Positions 1-35,202 of a stretch of 64,000 nucleotides of DNA are shown in pieces (the stretch's first letter is position 1; each line of letters opens with the position of its first letter). The DNA comes from Roseivirga echinicomitans (GTDB taxonomy: Bacteria; Bacteroidota; Bacteroidia; Cytophagales; Cyclobacteriaceae). Where the stretch lies: assembly GCF_001592935.1 (NCBI RefSeq), contig NZ_LRDB01000051.1, positions 177,851 to 241,850 of the forward strand, in the 5' to 3' direction. The notes beneath the pieces were generated by a model. It had not been told where the DNA came from and ran no database searches. It saw nothing but the letters and a program-made list of their open reading frames with translations. A program made the translations under genes and the position numbers.

Positions 1-1170
1 TTTAAGAGCGGATTGCATATCAAATTCAGTGGTATTCCAAATATTACGTAGCTGGTTTTGCAAACCATAGTACTGTCCTGTAATCACTTCTTTTTTGAGC
101 TCGGCTTCTTTGATAACTGATTGGTTCTTTTTTCCGAAAATGGGGAGGCTTAGGGTGACCATTGGCATCAACACATCCTTACCATTATCAGCCATGACCA
201 TGTCCTTCCGCTTATTTACCATAACATAATCCAATCCTATACCTATGTTCGGTTTTCTTTTAAGCTGAGCTAGAATCACTTCATTGTCTACTGCTTCTAG
301 ACTTGCTTGAATTGCCTTGACCCCTGGCTGATTAACGAGCACAGAGTCGAGTGAGGCCATATGCTGCCGATTGATTTCCACAGACTCATTTATAGGCACT
401 TCCGTATTTAGTTCGCGATTAAGTAAGGTGTTGAAATCGCCTACAAGATTGAGTTTTTTAAGTTCAAGCAGCTCTAGTTTGGTTTCAGATTGCTCTACGG
501 TAATTTGTACACGAACTAAATCTGCCAAAGAGACTAAACTGGCCTCATACTTTGTCTTCGTTATGGGTTCGTAAGAACGAAGGATGCTGAGGTTTTGGTT
601 GGTGATTCTTATTTCTTCCTGAATCTCTAAAAGCGTAAGCCATTTGGTTTTTACATTTAGGAAAAGGAGGTTTTTTGCTTCTTCAAACTCTTCGAACCGG
701 GCTCTAGCAATCATAGTGGCAGCCTGCTCTTTTGTTTTGAGCGTGCCCATCCATGGAAACATTTGAGAAATGGACAACCTAAGCTGCTGCGCACCAACAC
801 GTGTTTCTACTGGAGAAATAAAATAGCCAAAGCTGAGATTCGGGTCAGGTAAAATACCTTGTTGATTAACATTTTCTAAGGCAACCAAGTATTGATTATA
901 CTTGGCTTTTAAAGAAGGGTTTTGCTCGGCTGCAATCCTGAGGTATTCATTAAGAGGGGTCTGGGCCCTAAGGCCCATTCCCATCATTATCCATATACCA
1001 CAGATATAAAAAACCTTATTCCAAAGTCGCCACTTAATTGATTCTTTCAGTTGAGCACCAACAATTTGGATTCCTAAATATAGATTAAGAATGTTCGACT
1101 CAATAGCGCTAATAATAAGAGCGGTATATATGTTTATATGATATATAAAACTGGATGATGACTGGTTCAT
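1..1170 (-). CDS. TolC/CusC-like outer-membrane efflux channel protein, partial (3' end beyond window)
   Basis: The minus-strand frame stays open from about 1170 to the left edge, so the C-terminus is missing. The translation is a typical outer-membrane factor of the TolC/CzcC family: a hydrophobic export signal ending in GLRAQ, then TPLNEYLRIAAEQNPSLKA, and long helical stretches rich in E, K, Q and L. It would form the outer-membrane exit duct for the CusA-like pump encoded just upstream. The ATG at 1170 overlaps the pump's stop codon as ATGA, which indicates translational coupling, but it would put about 44 residues before the signal peptide. An ATT-AAG codon pair at 1038 sits exactly where Met-Lys of the signal peptide is expected, so the real start is uncertain. 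The periplasmic adaptor (CusB) is not in the window and may lie beyond the left edge. Confidence 0.85.
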   Translation of the reverse strand, partial: MNQSSSSFIYHINIYTALIISAIESNILNLYLGIQIVGAQLKESIKWRLWNKVFYICGIWIMMGMGLRAQTPLNEYLRIAAEQNPSLKAKYNQYLVALENVNQQGILPDPNLSFGYFISPVETRVGAQQLRLSISQMFPWMGTLKTKEQAATMIARARFEEFEEAKNLLFLNVKTKWLTLLEIQEEIRITNQNLSILRSYEPITKTKYEASLVSLADLVRVQITVEQSETKLELLELKKLNLVGDFNTLLNRELNTEVPINESVEINRQHMASLDSVLVNQPGVKAIQASLEAVDNEVILAQLKRKPNIGIGLDYVMVNKRKDMVMADNGKDVLMPMVTLSLPIFGKKNQSVIKEAELKKEVITGQYYGLQNQLRNIWNTTEFDMQSALK

Positions 1171-4100
1171 AGTGGTTTTGCTTTTAATAATGAACGGAAC
1201 TGTGCATCCTTGTAATAAGAGTAAAGCACGGGGACAACAAACAGTGTGATTAAGGCAATGAGCATCCCTCCGAAGGATGGAATTGCCATTGGTATCATTA
1301 CATCAGCGCCTCTTCCAGAAGAAGTTAAAACAGGTAATAGTGCGAGCAAAGTAGTAGCTGTTGTCATTAAACAGGGGCGTACTCTTCTTTTTCCAGCCTC
1401 TATAACCAAGGCTCGGGTTTCTTCCTTATTTAAGTTTTCTTTTCCCTCAAAGGATTGGGTCAGGTAAGTGGCAATTAAAACACCATCATCTGTGGCAATA
1501 CCAAATAGGGCGATAAATCCTACCCAAACGGCTACACTTAAATTGATTGGACTTACTTGAAATAGCTCGCGCATATTGGTGCCGAATAATCCAAAATCAA
1601 GAAAGCCATCCCAGCCATAGAGACCTAACATAATAAAGCCTCCGCCAAAGGCTACTGCAATTCCAGAAAACACCATAAGTGTAACTGGTACCGATTTGAA
1701 TTGGAAGTAGAGAATCAGGAAAATAACGGCCAACACAATTGGAATAACGATGGCGAGTCGGGCCTCCGCTCTTTGTTGATTCTGATAGTTTCCTGCGAAC
1801 TTAAATGAAACTCCGGCAGGTACTTTCAACTCACCCGCTGCAATTTTTTGGTCGATTAATTTTTGAGATTGCTCCACCACATCAGTTTCGGCATACCCCG
1901 TTTTTTTGTCGAAGATCACATAACCAACAAGGAAAGTGTCTTCACTTTTAATCATTTGTGCACCCTGGGTGTATTCTATACTGGCCAATTGCCCAAGAGG
2001 AATTTGCCCATTTGACGGGGTCGGAATCAGAATGTCTTTAAGTGCTTCTGGATCATCTCTCAATTCTCGAGGGTAGCGAACTCTAATTGGATATCTCTCT
2101 CTACCTTCAACGGTTTTGGAGAGTTCCATGCCCCCAACCGCCACTTGCAAATACTGTTGAACTTGTGCAACGCTTAGGCCATAAAGCGCTAGTGCTTGGC
2201 GATCTAAGTTGATGAGCAAATAAGGTTTCCCTACTATGCGTTCGGCAAAAACCGACTGGGCTTTTACCGAAGGCACTTCTTTCAGAATATCTTCAAGTTG
2301 CAATCCAAAAGCCTCAATGGTGGCTAAATCAGGTCCTTTCACTTTTATTCCCATGGGTGCTCTCATGCCGGTTTGTAGCATTATCAAGCGAGTTTCTATG
2401 GGCTGAAGTTTTGGGGCGGAAGTAACGCCTGGTAGGCTGGTGGCCTCTACAATTTCATTCCAAATATCATCTGGTGAAGAAATATGGTCTCGCCATTGAC
2501 GAAAGTAGGAACCGTCTTCATCTCGAACTAGTTCGCCCTTTGCATCGCGTACAAATGCACCATTTTCCTTTTTGAAGCGAAGTCTTCTTCCGTTTTCATC
2601 GGTGAGGTATTCACTCTTGTAGTTGATTATGTTTTCGTACATCGAGATGGGGGCAGGATCCAAAGCACTTTCTGTTCTCCCCAATTTCCCTACGACAGAT
2701 TGAATTTCCGGAATAGCGGTTACAGCCATGTCCAAGTTTTTCAACACCTCTATATTTTGAGCCATTCCCGCATGTGGCATGGAAGTAGGCATCAATAGGA
2801 ACGAACCCTCGTCTAATGAAGGCATAAATTCTTTTCCAATACCAGAGAATCTGTGGTTTAGATTTGAATAGACTTTGTTTGTTCGAACTGAGTCACCGAA
2901 AGTGGCGGGAATAAACCCAAAAACCTTGTCGAAGCCCTGCCAAATGGTTATTCCTAATAAAAAGATGAAGGTAGGGATGATAAGAAATTTCAATCGGTTT
3001 TGTAAACACCAATCGAGAATTCTTGGATAGAAATGGATAAACAGATTGAAAAAACCTAAAGTGATTCCGATAATGAGCGCAACGAAAATAAAGTTGACGA
3101 AGCCACTTACTTGAACCCCCAATGGCATCCATTCTTGACTTAATAAAATTGTAATGGCCAATAAGGAAATGGCGATAGAACCGTATTTCAGGAAGCCGAG
3201 AGAAGGGACGTAGTGACGAACGAGGTTTAAAATGCCAAAGGTAATCAATACCCATCCCGCAAATGAATAAGAGAGGGTTAAGGCCCAGATTCCAAAAACT
3301 ATAAGTCCGATGTTGAGCGCTAACTTTAGGTTTTTGCCTTTAGGTTTGAAGCCAAAGCACCAATAAGCCATTGTTGGCAGAATTATCAAGGCAACGATAA
3401 TGGCTGCAATGAGTGCGAAACTCTTGGTGTAAGCCAAAGGAGAGAATAATTTACCCTCAGCAGCCTGCAAAGTGAAGACAGGGATAAAACTGACAATTGT
3501 AGTTAGAACAGCTGTGATAATGGCCGAGGCAATTTCTTGACTGGCTTCTAAGATTGTTTTCAGAAGCGGCTGATCCTTCTTCTCGTCCAAGTGTTGGGTA
3601 ATGTTTTCGGTCAGCACAATCCCCACATCTACCATGGTACCAATGGCAATGGCAATTCCTGATAGCGCCACAATATTGGCATCTACACCAAAATAGCGCA
3701 TGGCAATAAAACACATAAGTACTGCAATCGGCAGCAAACTGGAAATTAGAATAGAAGCCCTTAGGTTAAAGAGCATTACCAATACTACCACAACCGTAAT
3801 TAGAATTTCCAGCGTTAGTGCCTCTTCCAAAGTGCCTATGGTTTCCTTGATCAACTTGGTACGGTCGTAAAAAGGAACAATGGTGAGTTTGGAAACTGTG
3901 CCGTCAGCCAATGTTCTTGAAGGAAGGCCTTGACTAATTTCTTCAATTTTGAGCTTCACATTATCTATTACGGCCATTGGGTTTGCCCCATAGCGGGCCA
4001 CTACCACACCACCAACGGCCTCTGCTCCCGATTTATCCAAAGCACCTCTTCTGGCCATTGGCCCTAAAGAAACATGAGCAACATCTTTAACTAAAATAGG

Positions 4101-4913
4101 CGTATTTCCATTTGCCTTGACAACAGCTTTTTCTAGGTCGGCCAAGCTTTTGATGTAACCTAGCCCTCTGACCAAGTACTCAACTCGGTTAATTTCAAGT
4201 GTTTTAGCCCCAATATCTTGGTTCGATTCCTTGACAGCTTTGACCACTTGATCTAATGACACTCCATAACCTTCCATGGCATTCGGATCAATGTCTACTT
4301 GATATTCCTTGACAAAACCACCTACAGAAGCAACTTCCGAAACGCCCTCAGCTGAGGCAAGTGCATACCTGACAGTGTAGTCCTGAACGGTTCTAATTTC
4401 TTGTGGGTCCCAACCGCCAGAAGGGTCTCCGTTGGGATCTCTTCCTTCAATTGTATACCAGAATATTTGACCCAATCCAGTAGCGTCAGGTCCTAAAGCG
4501 GGCTGCGTTCCTTCTGGTAAAAGCCCTTTGGGCAATGAGTTGAGTTTTTCTATAATTCTACTTCTGCTCCAGTAGAACTCTATGTCCTCATTAAAAATGA
4601 TGTAGATGGATGAAACTCCGAAAATGGAAGAGCTTCGAATCGTTTTCACCCCCGGAATACCTAATAGGGAAGAGGTTAACGGATAGGTGATTTGATCGTC
4701 AATATCTTGTGGAGACCTGCCCGCCCATTCGGTAAAAACGATTTGTTGGTTTTCTCCAATGTCTGGAATGGCATCTACAGGTACTGGGTCCTTTGGCAGG
4801 TTGATATCCCAGTCAAAAGGAGCTGTAACTATACCCCAGGCAACAAAAGTTACCATGAACAGAAAAGTAACTAGCCTGTTCTCTAGGAAAAATTTAATAA
4901 GTCTATTGATCAT
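1167..4913 (-). CDS. cusA: CusA/CzcA-family heavy-metal efflux RND transporter
   Basis: Inner-membrane proton-driven pump of the heavy-metal efflux RND family. The chosen start (4913) gives MINRLIKFFLENR, a normal RND N-terminus; the frame extends 21 codons upstream without homology-like sequence. The TM4 motif near residues 418-434 reads GTMVDVGIVLTEN, closer to the CusA (Cu/Ag) pattern than to CzcA. The second repeat has GIATDDGVLIATYL near 1140. At about 1248 aa it is longer than typical CusA (about 1050 aa). The extra length includes a hydrophobic block with several additional membrane segments around residues 530-640 and a charged soluble insert around 755-800 (DENGRRLRFKKENG). It is coupled to the downstream TolC-like gene by an ATGA overlap, and the HYC_CC_PP-type gene lies upstream in the same orientation. 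Metal specificity (copper or silver) is inferred. Confidence 0.93.
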   Translation of the reverse strand: MINRLIKFFLENRLVTFLFMVTFVAWGIVTAPFDWDINLPKDPVPVDAIPDIGENQQIVFTEWAGRSPQDIDDQITYPLTSSLLGIPGVKTIRSSSIFGVSSIYIIFNEDIEFYWSRSRIIEKLNSLPKGLLPEGTQPALGPDATGLGQIFWYTIEGRDPNGDPSGGWDPQEIRTVQDYTVRYALASAEGVSEVASVGGFVKEYQVDIDPNAMEGYGVSLDQVVKAVKESNQDIGAKTLEINRVEYLVRGLGYIKSLADLEKAVVKANGNTPILVKDVAHVSLGPMARRGALDKSGAEAVGGVVVARYGANPMAVIDNVKLKIEEISQGLPSRTLADGTVSKLTIVPFYDRTKLIKETIGTLEEALTLEILITVVVVLVMLFNLRASILISSLLPIAVLMCFIAMRYFGVDANIVALSGIAIAIGTMVDVGIVLTENITQHLDEKKDQPLLKTILEASQEIASAIITAVLTTIVSFIPVFTLQAAEGKLFSPLAYTKSFALIAAIIVALIILPTMAYWCFGFKPKGKNLKLALNIGLIVFGIWALTLSYSFAGWVLITFGILNLVRHYVPSLGFLKYGSIAISLLAITILLSQEWMPLGVQVSGFVNFIFVALIIGITLGFFNLFIHFYPRILDWCLQNRLKFLIIPTFIFLLGITIWQGFDKVFGFIPATFGDSVRTNKVYSNLNHRFSGIGKEFMPSLDEGSFLLMPTSMPHAGMAQNIEVLKNLDMAVTAIPEIQSVVGKLGRTESALDPAPISMYENIINYKSEYLTDENGRRLRFKKENGAFVRDAKGELVRDEDGSYFRQWRDHISSPDDIWNEIVEATSLPGVTSAPKLQPIETRLIMLQTGMRAPMGIKVKGPDLATIEAFGLQLEDILKEVPSVKAQSVFAERIVGKPYLLINLDRQALALYGLSVAQVQQYLQVAVGGMELSKTVEGRERYPIRVRYPRELRDDPEALKDILIPTPSNGQIPLGQLASIEYTQGAQMIKSEDTFLVGYVIFDKKTGYAETDVVEQSQKLIDQKIAAGELKVPAGVSFKFAGNYQNQQRAEARLAIVIPIVLAVIFLILYFQFKSVPVTLMVFSGIAVAFGGGFIMLGLYGWDGFLDFGLFGTNMRELFQVSPINLSVAVWVGFIALFGIATDDGVLIATYLTQSFEGKENLNKEETRALVIEAGKRRVRPCLMTTATTLLALLPVLTSSGRGADVMIPMAIPSFGGMLIALITLFVVPVLYSYYKDAQFRSLLKAKPL

Positions 4914-5056
4914 TAATGCTTGTTTTACAATCCGAAAATAACGGTTTGGCTCAATGGATTGAGCGTCTGAGCACAAATCTTAGGGTTAGATTTGGAAAAA
5001 GATATAGTCTGCCACTTTAAAAAAGCACAGTTAAATCTAACCTATGATAAGGCCGA

Positions 5057-5593: not shown

Positions 5594-8500
5594 ATGAACA
5601 AGAAAATTTTATTTACACTAATTGTCTTTATAGGTCTTTTAGGCTCTGTTTCTGCCCAAAAAATCGACATATCACTTCTAGAAGACATGAAGCCAAGAAG
5701 CATTGGCCCCGCAGGAGCAAGTGGTAGGATAACTGCCTTTGATGTAGAGCTTAATAATCCCGATATAATTTACGCTGGCACTGCTGCAGGTGGGTTATGG
5801 TTATCCGAAAATGGCGGATCTACTTGGGATGTTTTGTTTGATGATGGTAAGTCTGCTTCAATAGGTTCTATTGCCATTAATCAAAATAATCCGAATGAAA
5901 TTTGGGTAGGAACTGGCGAAGGAAACCCACGAAATAGTATGAACAATGGTGCGGGTATTTATAAGACCATTGATAAAGGAAGAACTTGGGAGTTTTTAGG
6001 ATTAGAAAGAACGAACGGTATTCACCGTATTATTCTCAACCCAAATGATCCAAAAATAGCAGTAGTTGCAGCTACAGGAACTCCTTGGGGAGAAAATCCA
6101 GAACGAGGCATTTATAAAACCACTGATGGAGGTAAAACTTGGACAAAGACTTTATACATAGATGTAAAAACTGGAGCTGCCGACTTGGTAGTTGACCCTT
6201 CAAATCCAAACAAACTCATTGCGGCCATGTGGGAACACAGAAGATGGCCATGGTTTTTTAATTCAGGCGGAGCAGGCTCTGGCATATTTGTGAGCTTAGA
6301 TGGCGGAGACACTTGGAATAGAAGAACAGCAGAAGACGGTTTGCCAAAAGGTGATTTAGGCCGTATAGGTTTGGCTTTTGCTCCTTCTGACCCTAACAGG
6401 GTTTACGCGTATGTAGAATCAAAATCGAATGCCATTTTCCGCTCAGATGATGGCGGTTTTAATTGGCAGCAGGTTTCAAAAGATGGAGATAGAAATATAG
6501 GCGGTAGACCTTTTTACTATGCTGACATCTATGTTGACCCAATCAATGAAAATAGAATTTACAGTATCCATTCCACCGTTACCGTTTCGGAAGACGGAGG
6601 GAAAACTTGGGGAAGTTTTGTGTCTGGAGGAAAAGTACATACCGATCACCATGCCTGGTGGATTCACCCAGAAGACCCTTCTTTCATTTTAGATGGCCAT
6701 GATGGCGGACTTACTTATACTAGAGATCGTGGTAAGAACTGGCATTTTGTAACAAGCCTTCCGCTAACACAATTTTACCATGTAAGAGTAGACAATGATA
6801 TTCCTTATAATATTTATGGGGGTGCGCAAGACAATGGCTCTTGGAGAGGCCCAAGTCAGTCATGGTTCAGGGGCGGAATACGTAATTTTTACTGGCAACG
6901 ACTGAGTACTGGTGATGGTTTTGATATGGCACCCGACCCAAGAGATAACCGCTATGGTTGGTCTATGGGGCAAGGAGGAAACTTAAATTATTATGATCGA
7001 GTAACGGGCTTAATGAACAAAGTGCGCCCAGTTCACCCAGAAGGAGTTGCTTTACGATTTAACTGGAATGCGGCTTTAGAGGTAGATAAGATTGATAAAT
7101 CTGTCGCTTATTACGGGAGTCAATTTTTACATAAAACCAACGATCGTGGAGCATCATGGGAAATAATTTCACCGGATTTAACTACTAACGATCCTGCCAA
7201 ACAAGATTACAAATCGGGTGGGCTTACTTATGACAATACCGCTGCTGAAAATCACACTACGATTTCTGCGATAGGGCCAAGCCCGAAGCAAGCAGGTGTG
7301 ATTTGGGTAGGTACAGATGATGGTAATGTTCAAGTGACCCAAGATGGGGGTAAAACCTGGAACAATGTTGTTAGCAACATGAAAGGACTTCCTGCCAACG
7401 CTTGGATTACTCAAGTTCAACCTTCTGAATACGATGCGGCTGAGGCTTTCGTGGTCATTGACAACCATAGAATGCATGATTGGACGCCTTATGTTTATCA
7501 CACCAAGAACTTTGGTCGTACCTGGACGAGGTTAGTTGATGACACAGATATGAGAGGTGCAACCTTGAGCTTTGTGCAAGATCCAATTGAACCAAAGTTG
7601 ATGTTTACAGGCACTGAGTTTGGTCTTTGGGTAAGTGTTGATGCAGGCACCACTTGGTCGCAATGGACCAACGGATATGGGTCAATTCCTACGCAAGACA
7701 TGGTGATTCACCCAAGAGAACACGATTTGGTGATTGCTACTTTTGGTAGGTCTTTTTGGGTGTTAGATGATATTCGACCACTACGGGCAATGGCTACCAT
7801 GGGAATGAAGAATTTGATGGATAAGCAGGTACAGGCATTCGATGCGCCAGATGCATACAAAGCCTTTATCGGTGAATCTTTTGGCTACCGTGCCAATCTG
7901 GTAGGTGATGCCATTTTTGAAGGCGACAATCGCTCTCCTAACGCTATGATCTCTTTCTACTTTAAAGGGAAGGATGATAAAACGGAACGTGTTAAGGTTG
8001 AAATTCTTGATGACAAAGGAGTGGTTATAAAAACCATAAATCAAAATGCAAAAAATGGTTTGAACCGTTTTGAGTGGAGGCTAGATTCTGATGGTGCAAA
8101 TCCATCGGCAGGCCGTTTTTCACGTGGGCCAGATGTTTTTCCAGGTAAGTACACCATTCGCGTGAGCTATAAAAACGAAAAAAGCGAGGCTAAGGTAAAT
8201 GTTTTTCCAGATCCACGAATAGAAGTGAATACGCAAGATATGATTGCCAAAAGGGTATTTATGGAAAAATACAATGAGTTGCAGAGTAAGGTATCCTCCA
8301 TGACTACCGATTTGAGAAATGCAAAAGCTGCCGTTGAAAAGGTGAATGCTAGAGTGAGAGAGGAACAAAAAACTGTGGCAGACCCAGTGGTGAAGCGTGG
8401 ACAAGAAATGATTAAGGCAATTGATGAATTGTATTATCAGATTTCGAGTAAACCTGCACCTCAAGGAAGTTATAGTGACAGAACAGTATTGTCCGCTAAA

Positions 8501-8692
8501 TTGAGCTTGGTAAGAGGAGCCATGCAATCGGTACAATTGCCAATCACTAAAAACGATGAAACTGCAATGAAGCTTATAGAAGCTGCTATTCCTCCAATGG
8601 AAGCCAAGGTAAAAGCGCTTTTAGGCAATGATTTTGCGGCATACAAAAACTATGTTAATGGTTTGGGTTTAAAACTGATTTCAGATAAGTAG
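5594..8692 (+). CDS. exported BNR/Asp-box repeat protein (VPS10/sialidase-like beta-propeller)
   Basis: A 1032-aa protein with a clear signal peptide (MNKKILFTLIVFIGLLGSVSAQ). Eleven Asp-box-like motifs of the form S/T-x-D-x-G-x-T-W can be read along the first 700 residues, for example SENGGSTWDVL, TTDGGKTWTKT, SEDGGKTWGSF, TQDGGKTWNNV and SVDAGTTWSQW. They indicate one or two beta-propellers of the BNR/VPS10 type. A beta-sandwich-like region follows around 780-890 (EILDDKGVVIKT, FEWRLDSDG), then a charged helical tail. Such proteins are annotated as glycosyl hydrolase or sialidase-like, but no sialidase catalytic triad can be identified by eye and the substrate is unknown. It stands alone as a transcription unit, ending at a strong terminator hairpin. 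Confidence 0.85.
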   Translation: MNKKILFTLIVFIGLLGSVSAQKIDISLLEDMKPRSIGPAGASGRITAFDVELNNPDIIYAGTAAGGLWLSENGGSTWDVLFDDGKSASIGSIAINQNNPNEIWVGTGEGNPRNSMNNGAGIYKTIDKGRTWEFLGLERTNGIHRIILNPNDPKIAVVAATGTPWGENPERGIYKTTDGGKTWTKTLYIDVKTGAADLVVDPSNPNKLIAAMWEHRRWPWFFNSGGAGSGIFVSLDGGDTWNRRTAEDGLPKGDLGRIGLAFAPSDPNRVYAYVESKSNAIFRSDDGGFNWQQVSKDGDRNIGGRPFYYADIYVDPINENRIYSIHSTVTVSEDGGKTWGSFVSGGKVHTDHHAWWIHPEDPSFILDGHDGGLTYTRDRGKNWHFVTSLPLTQFYHVRVDNDIPYNIYGGAQDNGSWRGPSQSWFRGGIRNFYWQRLSTGDGFDMAPDPRDNRYGWSMGQGGNLNYYDRVTGLMNKVRPVHPEGVALRFNWNAALEVDKIDKSVAYYGSQFLHKTNDRGASWEIISPDLTTNDPAKQDYKSGGLTYDNTAAENHTTISAIGPSPKQAGVIWVGTDDGNVQVTQDGGKTWNNVVSNMKGLPANAWITQVQPSEYDAAEAFVVIDNHRMHDWTPYVYHTKNFGRTWTRLVDDTDMRGATLSFVQDPIEPKLMFTGTEFGLWVSVDAGTTWSQWTNGYGSIPTQDMVIHPREHDLVIATFGRSFWVLDDIRPLRAMATMGMKNLMDKQVQAFDAPDAYKAFIGESFGYRANLVGDAIFEGDNRSPNAMISFYFKGKDDKTERVKVEILDDKGVVIKTINQNAKNGLNRFEWRLDSDGANPSAGRFSRGPDVFPGKYTIRVSYKNEKSEAKVNVFPDPRIEVNTQDMIAKRVFMEKYNELQSKVSSMTTDLRNAKAAVEKVNARVREEQKTVADPVVKRGQEMIKAIDELYYQISSKPAPQGSYSDRTVLSAKLSLVRGAMQSVQLPITKNDETAMKLIEAAIPPMEAKVKALLGNDFAAYKNYVNGLGLKLISDK

Positions 8693-8716
8693 TTTTAAGA
8701 GTACAGAAGACACAAA

Positions 8717-8750
8717 AAAAGGCCAGACTTTCTTGAGAGTCTGGCCTTTT
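8717..8750. terminator. bidirectional rho-independent terminator
   Basis: Perfect stem AGGCCAGACT/AGTCTGGCCT with flanking A-run and T-run, lying between convergent genes (the BNR protein on plus and the beta-barrel on minus), so it can serve both strands. Confidence 0.9.
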
Positions 8751-8771: not shown

Positions 8772-9335
8772 TTAACGAATGTAGAAGCTAACTCCCATGC
8801 TCACATTGGTCATATTTAAGTTCAAGCCGTAGTTTTCATTTTCGGTTTCAGCATTACCTAATTTTGTGGTTTCTTTAGAATAGTTTAGCATTCCCCAATT
8901 CATATCTAAAGCAAACTTTGGAGAGAGGAAGTAAGTCATTCCTGGAGCAAGTCTTATATCGAATGAGTTTAAATCAGCATCTGCTCCACCAACTTCTCTA
9001 CTTCCAAAACCAAAGGTCAGAGATGGCTCTAAATACAAATAAAAATTTTCGACCATTGGTTTATGAAAACGTGCGTAAGCCCCAATATTGAATTCATTGG
9101 AGTTCTCCCCGTTAAAATCACGACTGGTATAGCCAATAATACCCCCTAAACTTGTTGTTTCTGAGACGAAAACACCCGCTTTGGGTAAAAGTGAAAAGCT
9201 TGATATTTCAGTACCAGCGTTATTGACTTTTTGAAATGAGACATTTCCATTAATCTGAACATCTCCCTTTTGGATCTGGGCAAAACCCATGGTACTGACC
9301 AGAAGAATCGCCATTGTAAAAATTAACTTTTTCAT
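8772..9335 (-). CDS. small outer-membrane beta-barrel protein
   Basis: A 187-aa protein with signal peptide MKKLIFTMAILLVSTMGFAQ. It has alternating hydrophobic/polar strands and ends in an aromatic-rich strand (NVSMGVSFYIR) typical of outer-membrane beta-barrels. Segments such as IGAYARFHKPMVENFYLYLEP and LDMNWGMLNYS look like 8-strand OmpA/OmpW-type porin-like barrels of Bacteroidota. No catalytic motif is visible, and a specific function cannot be assigned. It is monocistronic, converging on the BNR gene across a shared terminator. Confidence 0.75.
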   Translation of the reverse strand: MKKLIFTMAILLVSTMGFAQIQKGDVQINGNVSFQKVNNAGTEISSFSLLPKAGVFVSETTSLGGIIGYTSRDFNGENSNEFNIGAYARFHKPMVENFYLYLEPSLTFGFGSREVGGADADLNSFDIRLAPGMTYFLSPKFALDMNWGMLNYSKETTKLGNAETENENYGLNLNMTNVSMGVSFYIR

Positions 9336-9523
9336 GATGTTATTTTTGAGTTTTAAAAATGATTTAACCTTTAGACGGAAAAGAGGATGTGAAAATCTCC
9401 CATTTAGTACTGTTGGGAAAATAATTCTTTTAACGGAAGTAATTGTCTATTAACAATTAGATGAAGGAAAATTAGATGTATTAATGAATTATACTTGTCT
9501 TTAGCTAAAACCTGTGTTTTTAG

Positions 9524-17522: not shown

Positions 17523-20500
17523 ATGAAAAATAAGAATACCATAGTCCTTCTGACAGTGATCATTACGGCTCTGTGTCTTTATTACCTTGGGATTACCTTT
17601 TTCTCAAGAGGAATTCAGCAAGACGCAGTTGATTATGCTAAAAATGAAGCTGGTGTAATAGACCAGCAAAAGAAACAATCGTACCTAGACTCAATTTGGA
17701 GAGAGCCTGTACTCAATATTTTAGGTGCTGAGTTTACTTACCAAGAAATCAAAGAATATGAATTGAACCTTGGTCTCGATTTACAAGGTGGAATGCATGT
17801 TACCTTGGAAGTTTCCCCTATAGCTATTATAGAGGGGCTTGCTGGAAATAGCAAAGACCCACAGTTTAGAGCAGCATTAGCACAGGCAGATGAAGCGCAC
17901 AAAACGAACACCCAAGCGCCATACTCGAGCTTATTTGAAACAGCTTATGCTGACGTCACCTCTGGTGGGCAGTTGAGCAAAGTGTTTGCAAATGCAGCCA
18001 ACAAAGGCAGAATTGAGTTTGGCTCAACCAATGCTGATGTAATGAAGGTGGTTAACGAGGAGATCGATAACGCTATTGATCGTGCCTTCCAAATTCTTAG
18101 AACTAGGATTGATAGGTTTGGTACATCACAGCCAAACATTCAGAGACTTCAAGGAACAGGTAGAATCCAAATTGAATTACCAGGGGTAGATAACCCACAG
18201 AGGGTAAGAAAACTATTACAAGGTGTAGCCAAGTTAGAGTTCTGGGAGGTTTATGGAATAAGTGAAGTTTCTCCTACGCTTTCTGCTATTAATGATGCAC
18301 TGTTGAAAATTGAAGCAGCAGACAAAACAGTAAAGCCTACAACCGACTTGGCTTCTGAATTGAAAGCTGAAAGTGCTGATGGACAAGAAAATTCTCTTGA
18401 AGATGAATTGTCTGGTGATACTACAAACACTGTTGAAGAAGATTTGGCTACTCCAGGTCAATCAAAGTTCTTCGCCTTAATGAAACAAGGTACTTCAGAG
18501 GGCTTTTTCTACGCTCTAGAAGATACTGCGAAGATTAACAAGGTGCTTAAGAATCCAAGTATTACAAAACTCTTCCCAAGTACTTTAAAATTCTTATGGG
18601 GTGTAAAGCCTGCTGAGGGAACTGAATTGCTAGAGCTTTACGCCATTAAAATGGGTAGAGGTGGAGAATCTCCTTTAACGGGTGAGGTAATCATAGATGC
18701 TCGTCAATCTTTGGATGAAATGATGAGACCAGCTGTAAGTATGCAAATGAACGCGTTGGGAGCAAAAAAATGGAGAAACATTACTGGGGCGAACATTCAA
18801 AGAAGAATTGCAATTGCCCTTGATAACTATGTTTATACTGCTCCAAATGTTATTCAGGAGATTGGAGCAGGTAGCTCATCAATCAGTGGAAACTTTACAA
18901 TAGAGGAAGCAGAAGATCTTGCAAACATTCTAAAAGCCGGCTCACTTCCGGCACCAACAAAAATTGTAGAAGAAGCTGTGATTGGCCCAACTTTGGGTAA
19001 AGAAGCACAAAGACAAGGGGTGACTTCAATTTTGGCCGGTTTGGCCATTGTGGTTATTTTCATGATTTTCTATTATGCTAAAGGAGGAATTGTAGCGAAC
19101 GTAGCTTTGCTTTTCAACATCTTCTTTATTCTTGGGATCTTGGCCAATTTAGGTGCCGCGCTGACCTTGCCTGGTATTGCAGGTATCGTGTTAACCATTG
19201 GTATGTCCATTGATGCCAACGTACTTATTTTCGAAAGAATCAGGGAGGAAATGCGAAACGGTATCCCGCTTTTGCAATCGATAGCCTCGGGTTATCAAAA
19301 AGCTTACAGTTCTATTATTGATGCGAACGTAACCACTTTCCTTACAGGTGTTATCCTTTACGTTTTGGGTCAAGGTCCATTAAAAGGATTTGCAGTAACC
19401 TTAATGATTGGTATTATATGCTCATTCTTTTCAGCGGTATTCATTACTAGGGTAATTATTACCTACATGACTAAGAAAGGAAATGATAGTAAACTAACGT
19501 TCGATACTCCTTTGTCAAAAGGCTGGTTGAACAATGTTCATTTTGACTTCTTAGGTAAAAGGAGATTGGCTTACCTTATGTCAACGATTGTGATTTCAAT
19601 TGGTATCATATTGATGGCAACCAACGGATTGAGACTAGGTGTAGACTTTAAAGGTGGTCGTTCTTATGTAGTGAATTTTGATGAAGCGATGACCGCTTCT
19701 GATATCAAAACGTCACTTTCTGGAATGGAGACCTTCGCTAATTCAGGTATCGAAGTGAAAACTTACAATACTGCGAATATGCTTAAGATTACCACGTCTT
19801 ATTTGATCGAGGATGAATCGGTAGAAGCAGATGCTGCTGTTAAAGGCGCGTTGACTGATGCATTGAGTCAGATTACTAATAAGACATTTGTAGATGGAAC
19901 TGTTGATAATGTAGAGGCTGGTCAATTTATAATTGGCGGGTCATCTAAAGTATCTCCAACTATAGCTGATGATATTAAAAACTCATCACTTGAATCGTTT
20001 GGTTTGGCTATTCTAGCCATCTTCTTCTATATCCTTATTAGGTTCCGAAGATGGCAATTCTCACTGGGTGCAATTATCGCCTTGGTGCATGATTCATTAA
20101 TTGTATTGTCTGCATTTGCTATCGCTGGCTTGTTTGGAATTAACTTCGAGGTAGATCAGGTATTTATTGGAGCCTTGCTTACAATCATGGGTTATTCTAT
20201 AAACGATACCGTGGTAGTGTTTGATAGGATTCGTGAGAACTTGCAGCTTAAAGGATCGAAAGACTTAGTGGGTACATTCAATGAGTCAATTAATAGCACC
20301 ATTAGCCGTACTTTGATTACTTCAATGACTACTTTGATTGTAGTTGTTGTCCTATTCATCTTTGGTGGAGAGGTACTAAGAGGCTTCTCTTTCGCTTTCA
20401 TGGTAGGTATTATTGTAGGTACTTATTCTTCAATCTTTATCGCATCACCAATTGTGGTTGATTTGTCTAAGAAAACATTAGGGAAAGCAGCAGATAAGGA

Positions 20501-20558
20501 GCAGGAATCTGCTAGAGCTAAGCTAAGCGCTAAAGCGGCAGCTACTGCCAATCAATAG
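17523..20558 (+). CDS. secDF: fused protein translocase subunit SecDF
   Basis: A 1011-aa fusion of SecD and SecF, the proton-driven accessory subunits that help pull preproteins through SecYEG. The SecD half has the N-terminal TM, the DLQGGMHVTLEV motif at residues 86-97, the P1-domain helper RIDRFGTSQPNIQR near 198 and the TM4 signature GMSIDANVLIFERIREE near 565. SecF begins around residue 665 with HFDFLGKRR, then LGVDFKGGRSYVVNF and the TM signature GYSINDTVVVFDRIREN near 895. An acidic low-complexity insert (residues about 265-315, rich in D, E, T and S) interrupts the SecD periplasmic domain. Fused SecDF is usual in Bacteroidota. A terminator follows. Confidence 0.97.
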   Translation: MKNKNTIVLLTVIITALCLYYLGITFFSRGIQQDAVDYAKNEAGVIDQQKKQSYLDSIWREPVLNILGAEFTYQEIKEYELNLGLDLQGGMHVTLEVSPIAIIEGLAGNSKDPQFRAALAQADEAHKTNTQAPYSSLFETAYADVTSGGQLSKVFANAANKGRIEFGSTNADVMKVVNEEIDNAIDRAFQILRTRIDRFGTSQPNIQRLQGTGRIQIELPGVDNPQRVRKLLQGVAKLEFWEVYGISEVSPTLSAINDALLKIEAADKTVKPTTDLASELKAESADGQENSLEDELSGDTTNTVEEDLATPGQSKFFALMKQGTSEGFFYALEDTAKINKVLKNPSITKLFPSTLKFLWGVKPAEGTELLELYAIKMGRGGESPLTGEVIIDARQSLDEMMRPAVSMQMNALGAKKWRNITGANIQRRIAIALDNYVYTAPNVIQEIGAGSSSISGNFTIEEAEDLANILKAGSLPAPTKIVEEAVIGPTLGKEAQRQGVTSILAGLAIVVIFMIFYYAKGGIVANVALLFNIFFILGILANLGAALTLPGIAGIVLTIGMSIDANVLIFERIREEMRNGIPLLQSIASGYQKAYSSIIDANVTTFLTGVILYVLGQGPLKGFAVTLMIGIICSFFSAVFITRVIITYMTKKGNDSKLTFDTPLSKGWLNNVHFDFLGKRRLAYLMSTIVISIGIILMATNGLRLGVDFKGGRSYVVNFDEAMTASDIKTSLSGMETFANSGIEVKTYNTANMLKITTSYLIEDESVEADAAVKGALTDALSQITNKTFVDGTVDNVEAGQFIIGGSSKVSPTIADDIKNSSLESFGLAILAIFFYILIRFRRWQFSLGAIIALVHDSLIVLSAFAIAGLFGINFEVDQVFIGALLTIMGYSINDTVVVFDRIRENLQLKGSKDLVGTFNESINSTISRTLITSMTTLIVVVVLFIFGGEVLRGFSFAFMVGIIVGTYSSIFIASPIVVDLSKKTLGKAADKEQESARAKLSAKAAATANQ

Positions 20559-30403: not shown

Positions 30404-30634
30404 ATGAACAGAAAAATAGTATCAAGTTTATTAGTAATGGTATGCTTTTTTATATCATTTACAGCCTTTGGGTGGAGGCAAGAGTCTTCAGATGACAAAA
30501 TCACTGCTTACAAAGGAAAAGATGCTCCAATGATTGATGAAAACCTCAATTTTTGCAAGGGAACTGGTTTCAAATGTGCTGAGCTAACTACATCACAAAT
30601 GACTGAAATAATTAAAGCACTAAAACAAGAATAA
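30404..30634 (+). CDS. small exported two-cysteine peptide, copy 1
   Basis: A 76-aa product starting at MNRKIVSSLLVMVCFF; the same frame is open upstream to 30299 but only this ATG gives a proper signal peptide (hydrophobic 5-22). The mature part is acidic and contains YKGKDAPMIDEN at 36-47 and FCKGTGFKCAEL with Cys51 and Cys58 (spacing C-x6-C), then an amphipathic tail. Stop and next start overlap (TAATG). It occupies the position that NVEALA-type peptides take next to beta-propeller lipoproteins in Bacteroidota, but the NVEALA motif is absent. Function unknown. Confidence 0.65.
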   Translation: MNRKIVSSLLVMVCFFISFTAFGWRQESSDDKITAYKGKDAPMIDENLNFCKGTGFKCAELTTSQMTEIIKALKQE

Positions 30635-30855
30635 TGAAAAGAATTTTTCCTGCAATAGCACTAATGGTGCTATTGCTTATCCCTGATTTATATGCTAAAA
30701 CTAATGAAGATGAAATTTTAATTTATAAGGGGAAAGATAATGAAGTATTTGAGAATGGTGGTCTATGCAATGGTTCTGGTTTTAAATGTATGGAACTCAG
30801 TGCTGCTGAACTAGCAGGTATTATAAAATTCATCAAAAGTATCAATAAAAATTAA
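30634..30855 (+). CDS. small exported two-cysteine peptide, copy 2
   Basis: A 73-aa product with signal peptide MKRIFPAIALMVLLLIPDLYA, then YKGKDNEVFEN at 31-41 and LCNGSGFKCMEL with Cys45 and Cys52. It is clearly related to the preceding peptide (same order of KGKD block and C-x-G-x-G-F-K-C core, same helical tail ELAGIIKFIKS), which suggests tandem duplication. Translationally coupled to copy 1 by a one-base overlap. Function unknown. Confidence 0.68.
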   Translation: MKRIFPAIALMVLLLIPDLYAKTNEDEILIYKGKDNEVFENGGLCNGSGFKCMELSAAELAGIIKFIKSINKN

Positions 30856-30860
30856 ACTCT

Positions 30861-31109
30861 ATGGAAACGATTTTAACAAAAGGCAGGCGTAAGATAATAT
30901 TAGTGCTTTTCTTGTTCATTTCTTTTTTTGCTATTTCTGAATTAGTTGCACAAGAACAAGATGACAGCACAGAATATGTGCTGTGCCCTGGCTGGGGATA
31001 CAAATGTATTTCAATCACGAAGCAAACTTGGCTTGGGGCAGTTACAGTTCCTGTTTACTTAAAAGGGAAAGACAAGCCGATGATCGAGTTTATAGATAAA
31101 CAAGAATGA
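30861..31109 (+). CDS. small exported two-cysteine peptide, copy 3 (blocks in swapped order)
   Basis: An 82-aa product with a basic N-terminus and hydrophobic signal (KIILVLFLFISFFAISELVAQ). The cysteine core LCPGWGYKCISI (Cys42, Cys49, again C-x6-C) comes first, and the block YLKGKDKPMIEF comes about 17 residues later; the order is the reverse of copies 1 and 2. It lies five bases after copy 2 and five before the next gene, so it is in the same operon. Function unknown; a disulfide between the two cysteines is expected once exported. Confidence 0.65.
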   Translation: METILTKGRRKIILVLFLFISFFAISELVAQEQDDSTEYVLCPGWGYKCISITKQTWLGAVTVPVYLKGKDKPMIEFIDKQE

Positions 31110-31113
31110 GCTT

Positions 31114-32172
31114 ATGAAGCGGATTGGCCTAATAGTAATAATATTATTATTTGTATCTCTTTATTTTGTTATTGATTATGATTCTAATAATTCTTCATCT
31201 GAATTGATTAAGCCTGTAATTGATGAAACTGGTATCCGTACTTTTAAAATGGAATTGGTTTTGTTAAAACCGTTTAATTTTCCAGACGGGAAGTCGGTTT
31301 TTAGGATTTTTTCAGATGGGGCGAATGTGTGGGGCATAGATAATAATCAAGAGGTAATTCTAATAGAAAACTATGGGAACAAGGTTAATCTTGGTTTAGT
31401 GAAATCTGGTGGTGCTCCTTTTGAAAACTCTCAATTATCATCGGTAAGAAATTTCAATGGAAACCTGCATATGGTAGATATTGAAAAAAACACAATACGT
31501 TCTCAGATTGGGTTGGATAGTATAGTTGATTTTAGAAAACTGTTAACACCTATCTATAATGGTGTACCAGTAAAAGATGATCGTTATTTGACAATAACCG
31601 ATGAAGGCCCTCAGTCTTCTTTGCAACTAATAAGTGTTTCTGATGCAGTTCCAATTTGGAGTAAGGAATTAATGGATTTATTTGAGTTAGAGTCAACTGA
31701 TTTTCCTGAGATTGTAGCTGAGGGAGTATTTACATATAACCAGAAACAAACCTTTTATGTACCTGGAAGAATAGGGGCTTTCGCTACATTTAGTGAGGAC
31801 GGTAGTTTGAATTATATAGCTAAAACAATTGATAAAACTCAAGCTCCAAAGGTATTTACTAAACAAATATTGAAAGGCTTTACAGCACAAATGTTTGTTA
31901 GAGAACCTGATTTCTATGTGAATTATTCTGCCTCAGCTGATGATCGACTCATATACATTTTGTCTAAATTTAAGCTTGGCAGAAATGATGATTTTATGAC
32001 AGTTGATACTTATGAGGTACATAATGGAGGTTACTTCACAAGCTTTGCAGTGCCAAACCTTGGAGAGGAATTACCCATTGAAATTGCAGTTTTAGACAAT
32101 AATTTATTTTTTGTTTTATATGAAAACTATAGCGTTGCTGTTTTCGAAATACACCTCAAGACTGAATATTAA
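31114..32172 (+). CDS. membrane-anchored or exported propeller-like protein, unknown function
   Basis: A 352-aa protein with an N-terminal hydrophobic segment (IGLIVIILLFVSLYFVI) without lipobox cysteine, followed by a strand-rich domain. Repeated short blocks such as VFRIFSDGANVWGIDNNQEV, LHMVDIEKNTIRSQ and LNYIAKTIDKT look like weak beta-propeller blades, similar in style to the 6-bladed beta-propeller proteins downstream. No cysteine and no catalytic motif. Follows the three peptides by four bases and overlaps the MauE/DoxX gene by 53 bp, so it is an integral part of this operon. Confidence 0.6.
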   Translation: MKRIGLIVIILLFVSLYFVIDYDSNNSSSELIKPVIDETGIRTFKMELVLLKPFNFPDGKSVFRIFSDGANVWGIDNNQEVILIENYGNKVNLGLVKSGGAPFENSQLSSVRNFNGNLHMVDIEKNTIRSQIGLDSIVDFRKLLTPIYNGVPVKDDRYLTITDEGPQSSLQLISVSDAVPIWSKELMDLFELESTDFPEIVAEGVFTYNQKQTFYVPGRIGAFATFSEDGSLNYIAKTIDKTQAPKVFTKQILKGFTAQMFVREPDFYVNYSASADDRLIYILSKFKLGRNDDFMTVDTYEVHNGGYFTSFAVPNLGEELPIEIAVLDNNLFFVLYENYSVAVFEIHLKTEY

Positions 32173-32572
32173 GCGTATAATCGAATTTGTTATTTTGATT
32201 TATTCGGGCTTTATGTTGTATTCTGGTGTTTCAAAGTTTATGAATTTATTGGACTTTGCATTTGGCATGACAAACTCTAATTTGTTTGATGGTAATACGG
32301 TTTTTTTTCTATCCTATTTTATTCCTTTATTTGAGATTATTCTAGGAGTGGTTCTTTTGTTTAAAAAAATGAGGATTGGTGCCTTGTACGCATTAATATC
32401 TCTGATGATTCTTTACTCAATCTACTTGGCAGTGTTTAAATATTATGCAGTCAGTGGTTGGTGTAGTTGTGGTTCTGTAATTGATTTGAGTCTCACAAAA
32501 CACTTGATTTTTAATGCTATAATTACAATACCCTTAGTCATTACGGTGTTTTTGATGGGTAAGGAAAAATAG
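32120..32572 (+). CDS. MauE/DoxX-family redox-associated membrane protein
   Basis: About 150 aa with four TM helices (IEFVILIYSGFMLYSGVSKF, VFFLSYFIPLFEIILGVVLLF, GALYALISLMILYSIYLAVF, LIFNAIITIPLVITVFLMG). The CSCGS cysteine pair at the end of the third helix, followed by LTKHLIFN, matches the C-[GS]-C-G...H-x-x-x-N pattern of MauE/DoxX proteins, which are linked to disulfide chemistry in the envelope. The ATG at 32120 is preferred over a TTG at 32111. It overlaps the preceding gene by 53 bp, so translation is coupled. In this operon a role in oxidising or reducing the two-cysteine peptides is plausible but inferred. Confidence 0.8.
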   Translation: MKTIALLFSKYTSRLNIKRIIEFVILIYSGFMLYSGVSKFMNLLDFAFGMTNSNLFDGNTVFFLSYFIPLFEIILGVVLLFKKMRIGALYALISLMILYSIYLAVFKYYAVSGWCSCGSVIDLSLTKHLIFNAIITIPLVITVFLMGKEK

Positions 32573-32786: not shown

Positions 32787-33968
32787 ATGGTGTTTTTGCC
32801 TAAATTTTTAGGTAAAAACATCTATTCCTATGCACTTCAAACACTTTTGCCTATGTTTTTAATTATAATCTCCTCTTGCGCTATACAAAAAGACGAGGTA
32901 ACCATTGATCTAAAAGTCTATGAAGTAGACCTAGATGCTGAGTTAGTTCCCTTTTCTGATATTCTAACAGATATTGAAATTACGGTTTTGGAAGAAAGCG
33001 AAAATTCGATGTTTGGGTATGTGGATAAAATAATTCTTGATGGGGATGAATTGATCATTGTGACGGGTGGTCATGGAAAAGCCATACGCTTTGATCAAGA
33101 TGGAAAGTATATTTCTCACTTATCGGAGCGAGGAATGGGACCGAGGGAATATTCATCCATTACTGATTTAATGGTTATGGATGATCAAGTCTTGTTGCTT
33201 GATGGCAAGCGTCAACGAATTACTAAGTGGACGAAAGACTGGGCCTATGACTCAGCAATGCGATTGGGCTTTGCAGCAGCTCATTTTACTTCACAAGGAG
33301 AGGGGTATTTGTTCAATGCCAATTACAGCTTAGTGGCCGACACTGTTCATGCAAATGTGATTACAGCCAACGCAAATCTTGAGTTAGAGGCAGCCTTAGT
33401 TCCATTTAAAAAACCAAAATCTTTGCTACTGGGGAATAGGGTTGTTTTTAGTAAAGTCGGCCGAGACATACATTATAGGCCTGGCTTTAGTGATACCGTA
33501 TATAGCATCACACCCGAGCATAAAGTTAGTCCTGCTTATCGATTTGAATTTGGCAAGTATTGGCATTTCGCAAATGAGCTACAAACCGATCATGAGTTTT
33601 TTGAATTTATAGACAACCTGAAAGGGAAGGCCGAGGCATTGATATATTTTACGAATATAGAATCTGATAATTGGATTTTTGGTAAGATGACATTGATGCC
33701 TACATATCGAACAGTGGGAGTGGTGATAGATAAAAACTCGGGGAGAGCGGAGTATTTGGGCCTTCAAGTAGGTGAAGGTTTACGAGACTCTATTCTTCCA
33801 ATTTTGGTTGAGAACGAACGCGTTTATGTGGCTATTGATGCTGATCATCTCAGGTATATTCTATCCATAAACCCTCAATTTGAGAAGGCCATAAAAGGGA
33901 GTCAATCCATTGAGAAAGCCTTGGCCTCTGAGAACCCTATGATCATGTCATTTAAGTTTAAGCGCTAA
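32787..33968 (+). CDS. 6-bladed beta-propeller lipoprotein (DUF5128-like)
   Basis: A 393-aa lipoprotein: the hydrophobic segment ends in the lipobox LIIISSC (Cys near residue 31). The mature part has the pattern of Bacteroidota 6-bladed beta-propellers: FGYVDKIILDGDELIIV, AIRFDQDGKYISHLSERGMGPREYSSITDLMV, then QVLLLDGKRQRITKW, typical of the blade with the conserved GxGPxEY. Probably surface- or periplasm-exposed and anchored in a membrane by lipid. Ligand unknown. Follows the MauE gene after a 214-bp spacer, same strand. Confidence 0.8.
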   Translation: MVFLPKFLGKNIYSYALQTLLPMFLIIISSCAIQKDEVTIDLKVYEVDLDAELVPFSDILTDIEITVLEESENSMFGYVDKIILDGDELIIVTGGHGKAIRFDQDGKYISHLSERGMGPREYSSITDLMVMDDQVLLLDGKRQRITKWTKDWAYDSAMRLGFAAAHFTSQGEGYLFNANYSLVADTVHANVITANANLELEAALVPFKKPKSLLLGNRVVFSKVGRDIHYRPGFSDTVYSITPEHKVSPAYRFEFGKYWHFANELQTDHEFFEFIDNLKGKAEALIYFTNIESDNWIFGKMTLMPTYRTVGVVIDKNSGRAEYLGLQVGEGLRDSILPILVENERVYVAIDADHLRYILSINPQFEKAIKGSQSIEKALASENPMIMSFKFKR

Positions 33969-34014
33969 AACAGAATTACCACTCCTAAATATTAGTCGAA
34001 TGTCTTTTCAAATC

Positions 34015-35202
34015 ATGGATTCAGATAAGAAGTATTTTTTAATCCTGTTTTTGCTAATCTTCTGGGGTTGTTCAACACAGAAGGACAATGTAAATGATGA
34101 TGCCTTTGGCAAATTTGAACTTGAGAAAATAGGGGAGAAGGCCTTTTATCTTGACAGTACACTGGCTCCTTTTAACCAGTCCATCTTAACTTTTGAACAG
34201 GATGGAGTTACCAAACTGTCAATCTTTAATCACTTTAATGTCAGTGTAAACGTTTTTGATTACTCGTCAGGTAAAATAGAAAAGCAGATAGGCTTTTTGA
34301 AAGATGGCCCAGAAGGAATTGGAACAATTACGAATATGGGGCACTTCATTCAAAACTCAGATTCCATTTTCTTTTTTAATCATTGGCAAAGTAGAGTACA
34401 CTTGATGAATGCTAAAGGTGAGAAATTACGCTCCTATGATGTTGGAATAGGGGAAGATAGTGAAGAACAGTCAAAACAAGGGTTTCACATGATGGTGTCA
34501 CCCCTTTCTCAAGCTTTCAAAAATGGTGATCGACTTTTTATTTCTGTCCAGAATGCAGGAGCAAATCCTTTTGATGATCAGCGACTGATCTATATGATTG
34601 AGTTGAATTTGAGGACAGGAGAACGAGAGTACCATTCGCTTCCGCAACCTTTAATGTTGAATAATTTCTGGGGAGTTTATACTCCTTTTGCCTCTTCTTT
34701 GGCATTTAACCCAAATACTCAACAATTGAGTTTGAGTTATACTAAAAATCCAGAAATAGACATTGTCTCGGTCATCGATTTGGATAGCATTCAAGAAAGT
34801 AAGTCGGTAAAATCTGAATACATGAGAGAGATGAAGCCGCTCCCTAAGCGCAGAGACACGCCTACTTTGTATGGCTATAGTTTTAATGAACTTTCCGACC
34901 TTACCAATATGCAAGGTTTTTATATGAACTTCATTTATGACCCTTATAAGGATGTTTATTATCGGGTTGCTCTCCATGAAAGAACGGTTGAACAGTATGA
35001 GAAAGGGAGAAGGAGTTTTAAGCTATCCATAACCGTGACCAATTCAAATTTTGAGAAGATGGATGAGCTGGATTTGGCTGAAGGAATGTATGAATACGAA
35101 ACAGCTTTTGTAAGTAAAGAGGGTTTGCACCTTTCACGCCAAATTGATTATCAGCCTGATGAGGATCTGTTAGTATTTGATGTTTTTAACTCGAAGAAAT
35201 AG
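34015..35202 (+). CDS. beta-propeller lipoprotein, DUF4221/BF3164-like
   Basis: About 395 aa starting at MDSDKKYFLILFLLIFWGC; lipobox IFWGC with the lipidated Cys near residue 20 (an ATG five codons earlier at 34000 is also possible). The mature part reads like DUF4221/BF3164-type propellers: SVNVFDYSSGKIEKQIGFLKDGPEGIGTI, then FNHWQSRVHLMNAKGEKLRSYDVG. Lies 46 bp after the preceding propeller lipoprotein on the same strand, so the two are likely co-transcribed and may act as a pair. Function unknown. Confidence 0.75.
   Translation: MDSDKKYFLILFLLIFWGCSTQKDNVNDDAFGKFELEKIGEKAFYLDSTLAPFNQSILTFEQDGVTKLSIFNHFNVSVNVFDYSSGKIEKQIGFLKDGPEGIGTITNMGHFIQNSDSIFFFNHWQSRVHLMNAKGEKLRSYDVGIGEDSEEQSKQGFHMMVSPLSQAFKNGDRLFISVQNAGANPFDDQRLIYMIELNLRTGEREYHSLPQPLMLNNFWGVYTPFASSLAFNPNTQQLSLSYTKNPEIDIVSVIDLDSIQESKSVKSEYMREMKPLPKRRDTPTLYGYSFNELSDLTNMQGFYMNFIYDPYKDVYYRVALHERTVEQYEKGRRSFKLSITVTNSNFEKMDELDLAEGMYEYETAFVSKEGLHLSRQIDYQPDEDLLVFDVFNSKK

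Follow-up and report, generated by a model that had tools for sequence, protein, structure and literature searches.

Three consecutive genes for very small, apparently exported peptides, followed at once by the genes for a propeller-like protein and a MauE redox membrane protein, raise the question of what such peptides would need these two partners for. The genes lie in Roseivirga echinicomitans, on a stretch of 64,000 nucleotides (contig NZ_LRDB01000051.1, positions 177,851 to 241,850) that we call the window. A previous interpretation based on the letters of this DNA (the sequence-only reading) proposed that the peptides are exported, that MauE oxidises their cysteines and that propellers bind or display them. 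Here we show that MauE, the propeller and small cysteine-bearing peptides occur together repeatedly in Bacteroidota, in many loci with MauE and the propeller fused in one chain. We give roughly equal weight to belief and doubt in the interpretation that the locus works as a single module for peptide oxidation: MauE would close the disulfide of a peptide while the propeller holds it.

The five genes share the plus strand and are tightly packed. The genes for peptides 1, 2 and 3 (76, 73 and 82 residues) are spaced from one another and from the propeller gene by −1, 5 and 4 bp, with peptides 1 and 2 sharing one nucleotide, and the MauE gene, read from its ATG, shares its first 53 nt with the end of the propeller gene. 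Each peptide carries a likely signal peptide, one KGKD block and a C-x-G-x-G-[FY]-K-C core with six residues between the cysteines, an arrangement and spacing that the sequence-only reading had described correctly. As a DNA motif, the core has three occurrences in the window, where shuffles predict 0.01; a slightly stricter version has three in the entire 4.18-Mb genome, always at this locus, and a reversed-pattern control gave none. Signal peptides were assigned by eye and with a crude rule rather than a trained predictor, and cleavage at plausible sites would give mature forms of about 53, 52 and 52 residues.

The two downstream genes also fit their earlier description as a propeller-like protein followed by a MauE protein with a cysteine pair. 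MauE matches PF07291 at 66.7 bits (E = 3.3e-18; cut-off, 27), and a C-x-C pair is present in 86 of the 86 near-full-length MauE copies from the loci that we fetched. The 352-residue protein is modelled (predicted local distance difference test score (pLDDT), 79.8) as a transmembrane (TM) helix followed by about six four-stranded blades, according to our own reading of the strands. No Pfam family, DUF5128 and DUF4221 included, matches it at E ≤ 1, and a sequence search of the PDB returned two matches, the best at an E value of 0.077, which is not meaningful. The protein represents a propeller family without a Pfam name.

Recurrence of the propeller with MauE and small peptides

The first relatives of the propeller were six proteins at 40–56% identity and one named locus from a Roseivirga metagenome-assembled genome (MAG; L007), and in a whole-genome search 4 of 59 genomes, including the window's own, had the propeller. 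The MAG holds the nearest ortholog, with propeller and MauE kept and MauE in two frames (L007:8989–9470); a fragment resembling the start of a transposase (by eye; no Pfam match) lies at the expected peptide site (L007:7853–8000). A broader propeller model (A5) extended the family to 55 of 390 genomes of the taxonomic family (21 of 84 genera) and, at the phylum level, to 83 of 395 genomes (41 of 170 genera). All places of the 390-genome search except two short fragments were fetched; from the 395-genome search we fetched all 38 new places of at least 150 bits and, of the weaker ones, those ranked highest. L115, which has no propeller open reading frame (ORF) in its box, was dropped from all counts.

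A peptide neighbour was defined as an exported ORF with at least two cysteines on the same strand and no more than 600 bp from the propeller. By this definition, 64 of the 74 propellers in the first sample are accompanied by a small peptide, compared with 7 of 35 large ORFs from the same loci (Fisher p = 1.5e-11), and some of the seven control peptides also look like real peptides. MauE lies within 1.5 kb of 47 of the 54 propellers scoring at least 100 bits, as against 3 of the 20 weaker ones, and at one locus (L090) a single 502-residue ORF contains both MauE (10–147) and the propeller (150–484). The second sample was rich in such fusions: among its 38 places of at least 150 bits, 33 have MauE and propeller in one chain, four have an adjacent MauE and one, near a contig end, has none (L161), and a small cysteine peptide lies within 600 bp in 35. 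Pfam confirmed MauE in the three fusions that were scanned, and found DUF6520 (PF20130) in all five peptides scanned beside fusions, three of these below the family cut-off.

The association also emerges from the peptide side. A search for DUF6520 in 198 genomes gave 13 places over the cut-off, with MauE in all 13 loci and such a propeller beside the DUF6520 gene in 12; the query was independent, whereas the genomes overlap with those of the two samples, in which most of the 13 loci had already appeared. Repeated co-localisation, fusion and this reverse search together uphold the earlier claim that MauE, propeller and peptides belong together. Because the fusion recurs, MauE and the propeller probably act together, and because adjacency recurs and peptide labels co-segregate with the propeller, the small peptides are probably what the propeller serves.

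This co-segregation is visible on a propeller tree of 72 of the 74 proteins (L093 and L103, shorter than 300 residues, were excluded here and from the anchor count). A branch with a support of 99 separates clade A, with 24 rows including the window and peptides of the CxGxGxxC, CxxGDxxxC, CDAST and C-x6-CC types, from clade B, with 48 rows mostly beside DUF6520-like peptides. That label was given mostly by look, PF20130 having been scanned for nine of these peptides (five over the cut-off, four below), and the exceptions in clade B are L066, with the CxGxGxxC pattern, and the identical L108 and L109, with a CC pattern. Peptide labels, with 'none' counted as one label, change 22 times on the tree compared with a shuffled mean of 44.5, and none of 200 shuffles was as low.

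Might the window peptides then be ordinary members of DUF6520, or of the NVEALA family (PF14055), beside an ordinary propeller lipoprotein? NVEALA peptides are likewise tiny, exported and found in the same phylum; the sizes are similar, and DUF6520 peptides do adjoin clade-B relatives of the window propeller. Yet none of the three peptides matches PF14055 or PF20130 at E ≤ 1, the window propeller is TM-anchored and, unlike the six-bladed DUF5128 and DUF4221 propellers, has no Pfam match, and clades A and B fall on opposite sides of a well-supported branch, all of which makes this explanation very unlikely. DUF6520 loci do resemble the window in combining a small exported peptide with a propeller of the same superfamily (one model finds both) and an adjacent or fused MauE. 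Their peptides differ, mostly having two to four cysteines in 75–115 residues and lacking the combination of a C-x-G-x-G-x-x-C loop and a KGKD tail, with the clade-B locus L066, which has the loop pattern, as an exception. The sequence-only reading, from which the pairing of NVEALA peptides with propellers comes, had noted the absence of the NVEALA motif and suspected a distinct family. This suspicion holds: because neither NVEALA nor any other Pfam or NCBIfam family matched over its cut-off, the window peptides form a distinct family. PF14055 itself had no match over the cut-off, and two below it, in 198 genomes of the phylum, and no paper in the literature that we searched names DUF6520 or NVEALA.

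Membrane anchor, MauE and the peptide loop

Among the close relatives, MauE is adjacent or fused to 52 of 54 TM-anchored propellers and to 0 of 18 lipid-anchored ones. Of these 52, 50 carry the 1.5-kb label and L090 is the fusion; the last, L048, has a CGC pair and a PF07291 match that stays under the cut-off. This count rests on a revised lipobox rule, since the first pattern had counted cysteines inside TM helices and missed some lipoboxes; all 54 rows assigned to the TM class by default were checked and have a hydrophobic stretch. The clade-A loci with a TM anchor, MauE and peptides have a six-residue loop in five of five cases (the window, L016, L017, L048 and L061), whereas 8 of the 14 lipid-anchored loci with a peptide carry two-cysteine peptides, all with a seven-residue loop; in the remaining ones the peptides have more cysteines, with seven-residue spacing among them, the exception being L110 with six. 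Because few evolutionary events underlie them, we treat the ties of the anchor to MauE and to the loop as a pattern and not as statistical proof.

Homologues without MauE neighbours, which the sequence-only reading had named as evidence that would refute it, are thus found in the lipid-anchored branch, in which 14 of 18 propellers have cysteine peptides yet no MauE in the fetched locus. MauE therefore seems dispensable for the association of peptide and propeller, and the stable core, judged from these gene neighbourhoods, is probably the pair of peptide and propeller, to which MauE belongs where the anchor is a TM helix.

Because peptides and lipid-anchored propellers manage without a neighbouring MauE, the main rival to an oxidation module is a lasting envelope complex of the two, such as a sensor or a holder with its surface ligand. 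The pair would then be the functional unit, and MauE would be a mere folding helper or would act on other envelope proteins. That peptide type tracks the propeller tree is also as such a complex would predict. The fusion of MauE and propeller in 33 of the 38 strong second-sample relatives, and the presence of MauE in every one of the five TM-anchored clade-A loci with peptides, go beyond what a helper role would require, and we consider a lasting complex unlikely, if a serious contender.

The peptides and their genomic surroundings

The coordinates of the module are collected below. The ORF of peptide 1 also has longer in-frame starts open.

Features of the peptide, propeller and MauE cluster (positions in the window)
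Feature	Position	Strand	Description
Peptide 1 gene, 76 aa	30404..30634	+	Predicted signal peptide, KGKD block, then CKGTGFKC
KGKDAPMID block, peptide 1	30512..30538	+	Precedes the cysteine pair
C-x6-C motif, peptide 1	30554..30577	+	DNA motif search
Peptide 2 gene, 73 aa	30634..30855	+	Predicted signal peptide, KGKD block, then CNGSGFKC
KGKDNEVFE block, peptide 2	30727..30753	+	Precedes the cysteine pair
C-x6-C motif, peptide 2	30766..30789	+	DNA motif search
Peptide 3 gene, 82 aa	30861..31109	+	Predicted signal peptide, CPGWGYKC, then KGKD block
C-x6-C motif, peptide 3	30984..31007	+	DNA motif search
KGKDKPMIE block, peptide 3	31062..31088	+	Follows the cysteine pair
TM-anchored propeller, 352 aa	31114..32172	+	TM helix at about residues 2–23; six-bladed propeller predicted at about 40–350
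MauE redox membrane protein (PF07291)	32120..32572	+	ATG at 32120; TTG at 32111 possible; overlaps the propeller gene
C-S-C pair of MauE	32462..32470	+	Sequence

Searching 5.8 billion proteins with the three peptides yielded only two relatives beyond the window's own, P0002 and P0004, both from metagenome contigs of 1107 nt that are likely one and the same. Peptide 2 is identical to P0002 at 69 of 73 positions, and peptide 3 to P0004 at 48 of 51 positions in the mature part and 15 of 30 in the signal part. Because the mature part of peptide 3 was conserved while the signal part drifted, the peptide ORFs look like real genes. When the joined peptide alignment served as query, 21 proteins matched at E ≤ 1, including two that were known before. 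Their sources include Algoriphagus, Belliella and Mongoliitalea; where named they are 'hypothetical protein' or uncharacterised, and they have no Pfam match. No relatives were found on viral contigs.

The order of the two blocks differs between the peptides: KGKD precedes the cysteine pair in peptides 1 and 2 and follows it in peptide 3, whose order, Cys loop first and KGKD or KGxG last, is shared by relatives at other loci. The match across this swap between KGKDAPMID (peptide 1) and KGKDKPMIE (peptide 3) was better than in any of 1,000 shuffles; for peptides 2 and 3 the cross-swap match was equalled in 8 of 1,000, whereas same-side comparisons of peptide 1 or 2 with peptide 3 were unremarkable (233 to 827 of 1,000 shuffles as good). 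The swapped order of peptide 2 is retained in P0002. Because the order is swapped between peptides, their sequences suggest that each consists of two short blocks independent of each other, and not of a single folded domain. The loci L016 (loop CPGRGERC), L061 (CPGSGERC, and CRGSGYHC followed by KGKDEPGAV) and L048 (CPGSGESC followed by KGKDDSAIVI, and CPGGGESC) have peptides like those of the window, with a C-x-G-x-G-x-x-C loop and a KGxG- or KGKD-type tail with a hydrophobic end. The sequence-only reading had also raised toxin or metal-binding roles; nothing in the analysis points to either, although no test was aimed at them, and with respect to metal binding each peptide has two cysteines and no profile match.

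Alternatively, the peptides could be secreted signals or antagonists that the propeller and MauE mature and that an RND-type pump exports across the outer membrane. AcrB-type and HlyD-type genes adjoin the propeller and MauE in L017 and L061, as does an AcrB-type gene in L159 and L160, and tandem, diverged peptide copies recur. However, RND genes are common in any case, and matches are confined to 3 of the 24 loci of clade A and 10 of the other 110; the clear RND-like ORF of the window (1167–4976) is about 25 kb away, and a nearer weak match (17523–20558) is SecDF according to Pfam. A general link between RND genes and the module was rejected on these counts, and secretion of this kind appears improbable to us.

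RND genes thus stand beside the module in several relatives, yet in a minority of loci overall; the AcrB-type ones lie at L017:6729–10917, L061:831–3782 and 5674–6732, L159:1860–5033, L160:2–2908 and L102:5688–8807. The middle of three tandem peptide copies in L017 (4494–4690) seems, by eye, to have decayed and has an early in-frame stop.

Downstream of the module in the window, after a gap of 214 bp and on the same strand, are genes for two lipoprotein propellers, DUF5128 and DUF4221 (32787–33968 and 34000–35202). A search for promoters gave 20 sigma-70-type sites compared with 14.7 in shuffles (standard deviation, 3.7), and terminator-like sites 2 compared with 1.3. Four Bacteroidota-type promoter patterns occur in the window and none is upstream of the peptides; an Rfam scan of the window gave no match.

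Other surroundings are more varied. At L164, L165, L168, L172 and L173, distant propellers lie beside longer cysteine peptides with other patterns, and MauE was not seen in the fetched locus. Further exported, cysteine-rich peptides occur between lipoprotein-like ORFs of 320–400 residues at L103:5360–8763 and L097:5209–8417, and from their sequences are perhaps other peptide–lipoprotein pairs. A near-identical stretch, MDKYEVTMAEFQRFVAATGYKTS, recurs downstream of the module in L016, close to the beginning of each of three ORFs (6147–6629, 8121–8732 and 8787–9500), which look like tandem copies of one gene.

A candidate module for peptide oxidation

The literature that we searched, with most subscription papers beyond reach, contained no description of a module of MauE, propeller and peptide, although parts of it have counterparts elsewhere. 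MauE beside a propeller and a small exported cysteine protein resembles the composition of the mau cluster. A miniature enzyme resembling methylamine dehydrogenase, with the propeller as large subunit, the cysteine peptide as small catalytic subunit and MauE as maturation factor, would account for this shared trio and for the disulfide role proposed for MauE, a role presented as speculative even for the mau cluster itself (PMC7794033). At E ≤ 1, Pfam gives no match that names the peptides or the propeller as Mau subunits of the MauA or MauB type. The small subunit of methylamine dehydrogenase contains tryptophans for its quinone cofactor, and its propeller has seven blades; the model of the window propeller has about six, and peptide 2 has no tryptophan, so a tryptophan-derived quinone is not expected, while the sole tryptophan of peptide 1 is at the predicted cleavage site. 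We rejected this candidate on these three grounds and find it scarcely credible. Methylamine-dehydrogenase chains were absent among the 50 fold matches listed for the propeller, which we count as no evidence.

A second counterpart is found in Streptomyces, in which mauE homologs adjoin small cysteine-rich peptides in candidate families of ribosomally synthesized and post-translationally modified peptides (RiPPs) identified by decRiPPter, and are proposed to modify them (PMC7794033). MauE beside such peptides therefore has a precedent. Those precursors have at least eight cysteines and the passages on them mention no propeller, in contrast to the two cysteines and the propeller of the window (PMC7794033).

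For the oxidation module, we propose that the three C-x6-C peptides are exported, as their predicted signal peptides suggest, that the propeller would hold each of them in physical contact, that the C-S-C pair of MauE would close the peptide disulfide and that electrons would pass from the peptide via MauE into the membrane. Disulfide formation would be the natural chemistry, given the C-x-C pair of MauE and the conserved cysteine pair of the peptides. As a guess, prompted by their make-up of two short blocks that can change places, the finished peptides may serve as short envelope or surface ligands.

Several observations weigh against this proposal. Besides the lipid-anchored loci that keep peptides without MauE, the L007 ortholog has no C-x6-C motif in the fetched locus nor, by a strict pattern, in the MAG genome, and the other 17 genomes of the same genus among the 59 searched have no propeller match. 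The peptides were modelled poorly (pLDDT 56.5) and the model was not used. The propeller tree was built by a quick method with long branches flagged, and the clustering of labels on it can arise from near-copies. Moreover, the anchor rule was devised after seeing the data; the cruder first rule gave a weaker split (MauE in 40 of 48 compared with 10 of 24), and the tree has four anchor changes, with one independent pair on well-supported branches and four on all. Among 30 weaker places, below 150 bits, only 14 have a peptide nearby, and the tie between anchor and MauE breaks down: 12 are TM-anchored without MauE, 11 lipid-anchored without, three TM-anchored with, one lipid-anchored with and three unclear (one with MauE). 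These weaker places may be other propeller families.

On balance, we find it an open call whether the locus represents an undescribed envelope machine spread across the phylum, in which a MauE oxidase physically joined to a periplasmic propeller would oxidise its own exported peptides. Its clients would differ by lineage (C-x6-C peptides with a KGxG or KGKD tail, DUF6520 peptides and C-x6-CC types), and in a sister branch a lipid anchor would have replaced the TM helix, MauE would have been lost and the loop would have grown to seven residues. On this interpretation, short genes without a name, C-x6-C here and DUF6520 elsewhere, would have a partner in common and a function open to testing, and for MauE the natural fusion partner would be a pointer to the substrate. 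In fusions such as the 510-residue protein of L124, one gene would combine an oxidase and its presumed substrate holder, and because both functions are joined there, a single knock-out and a single peptide could suffice to test the idea.

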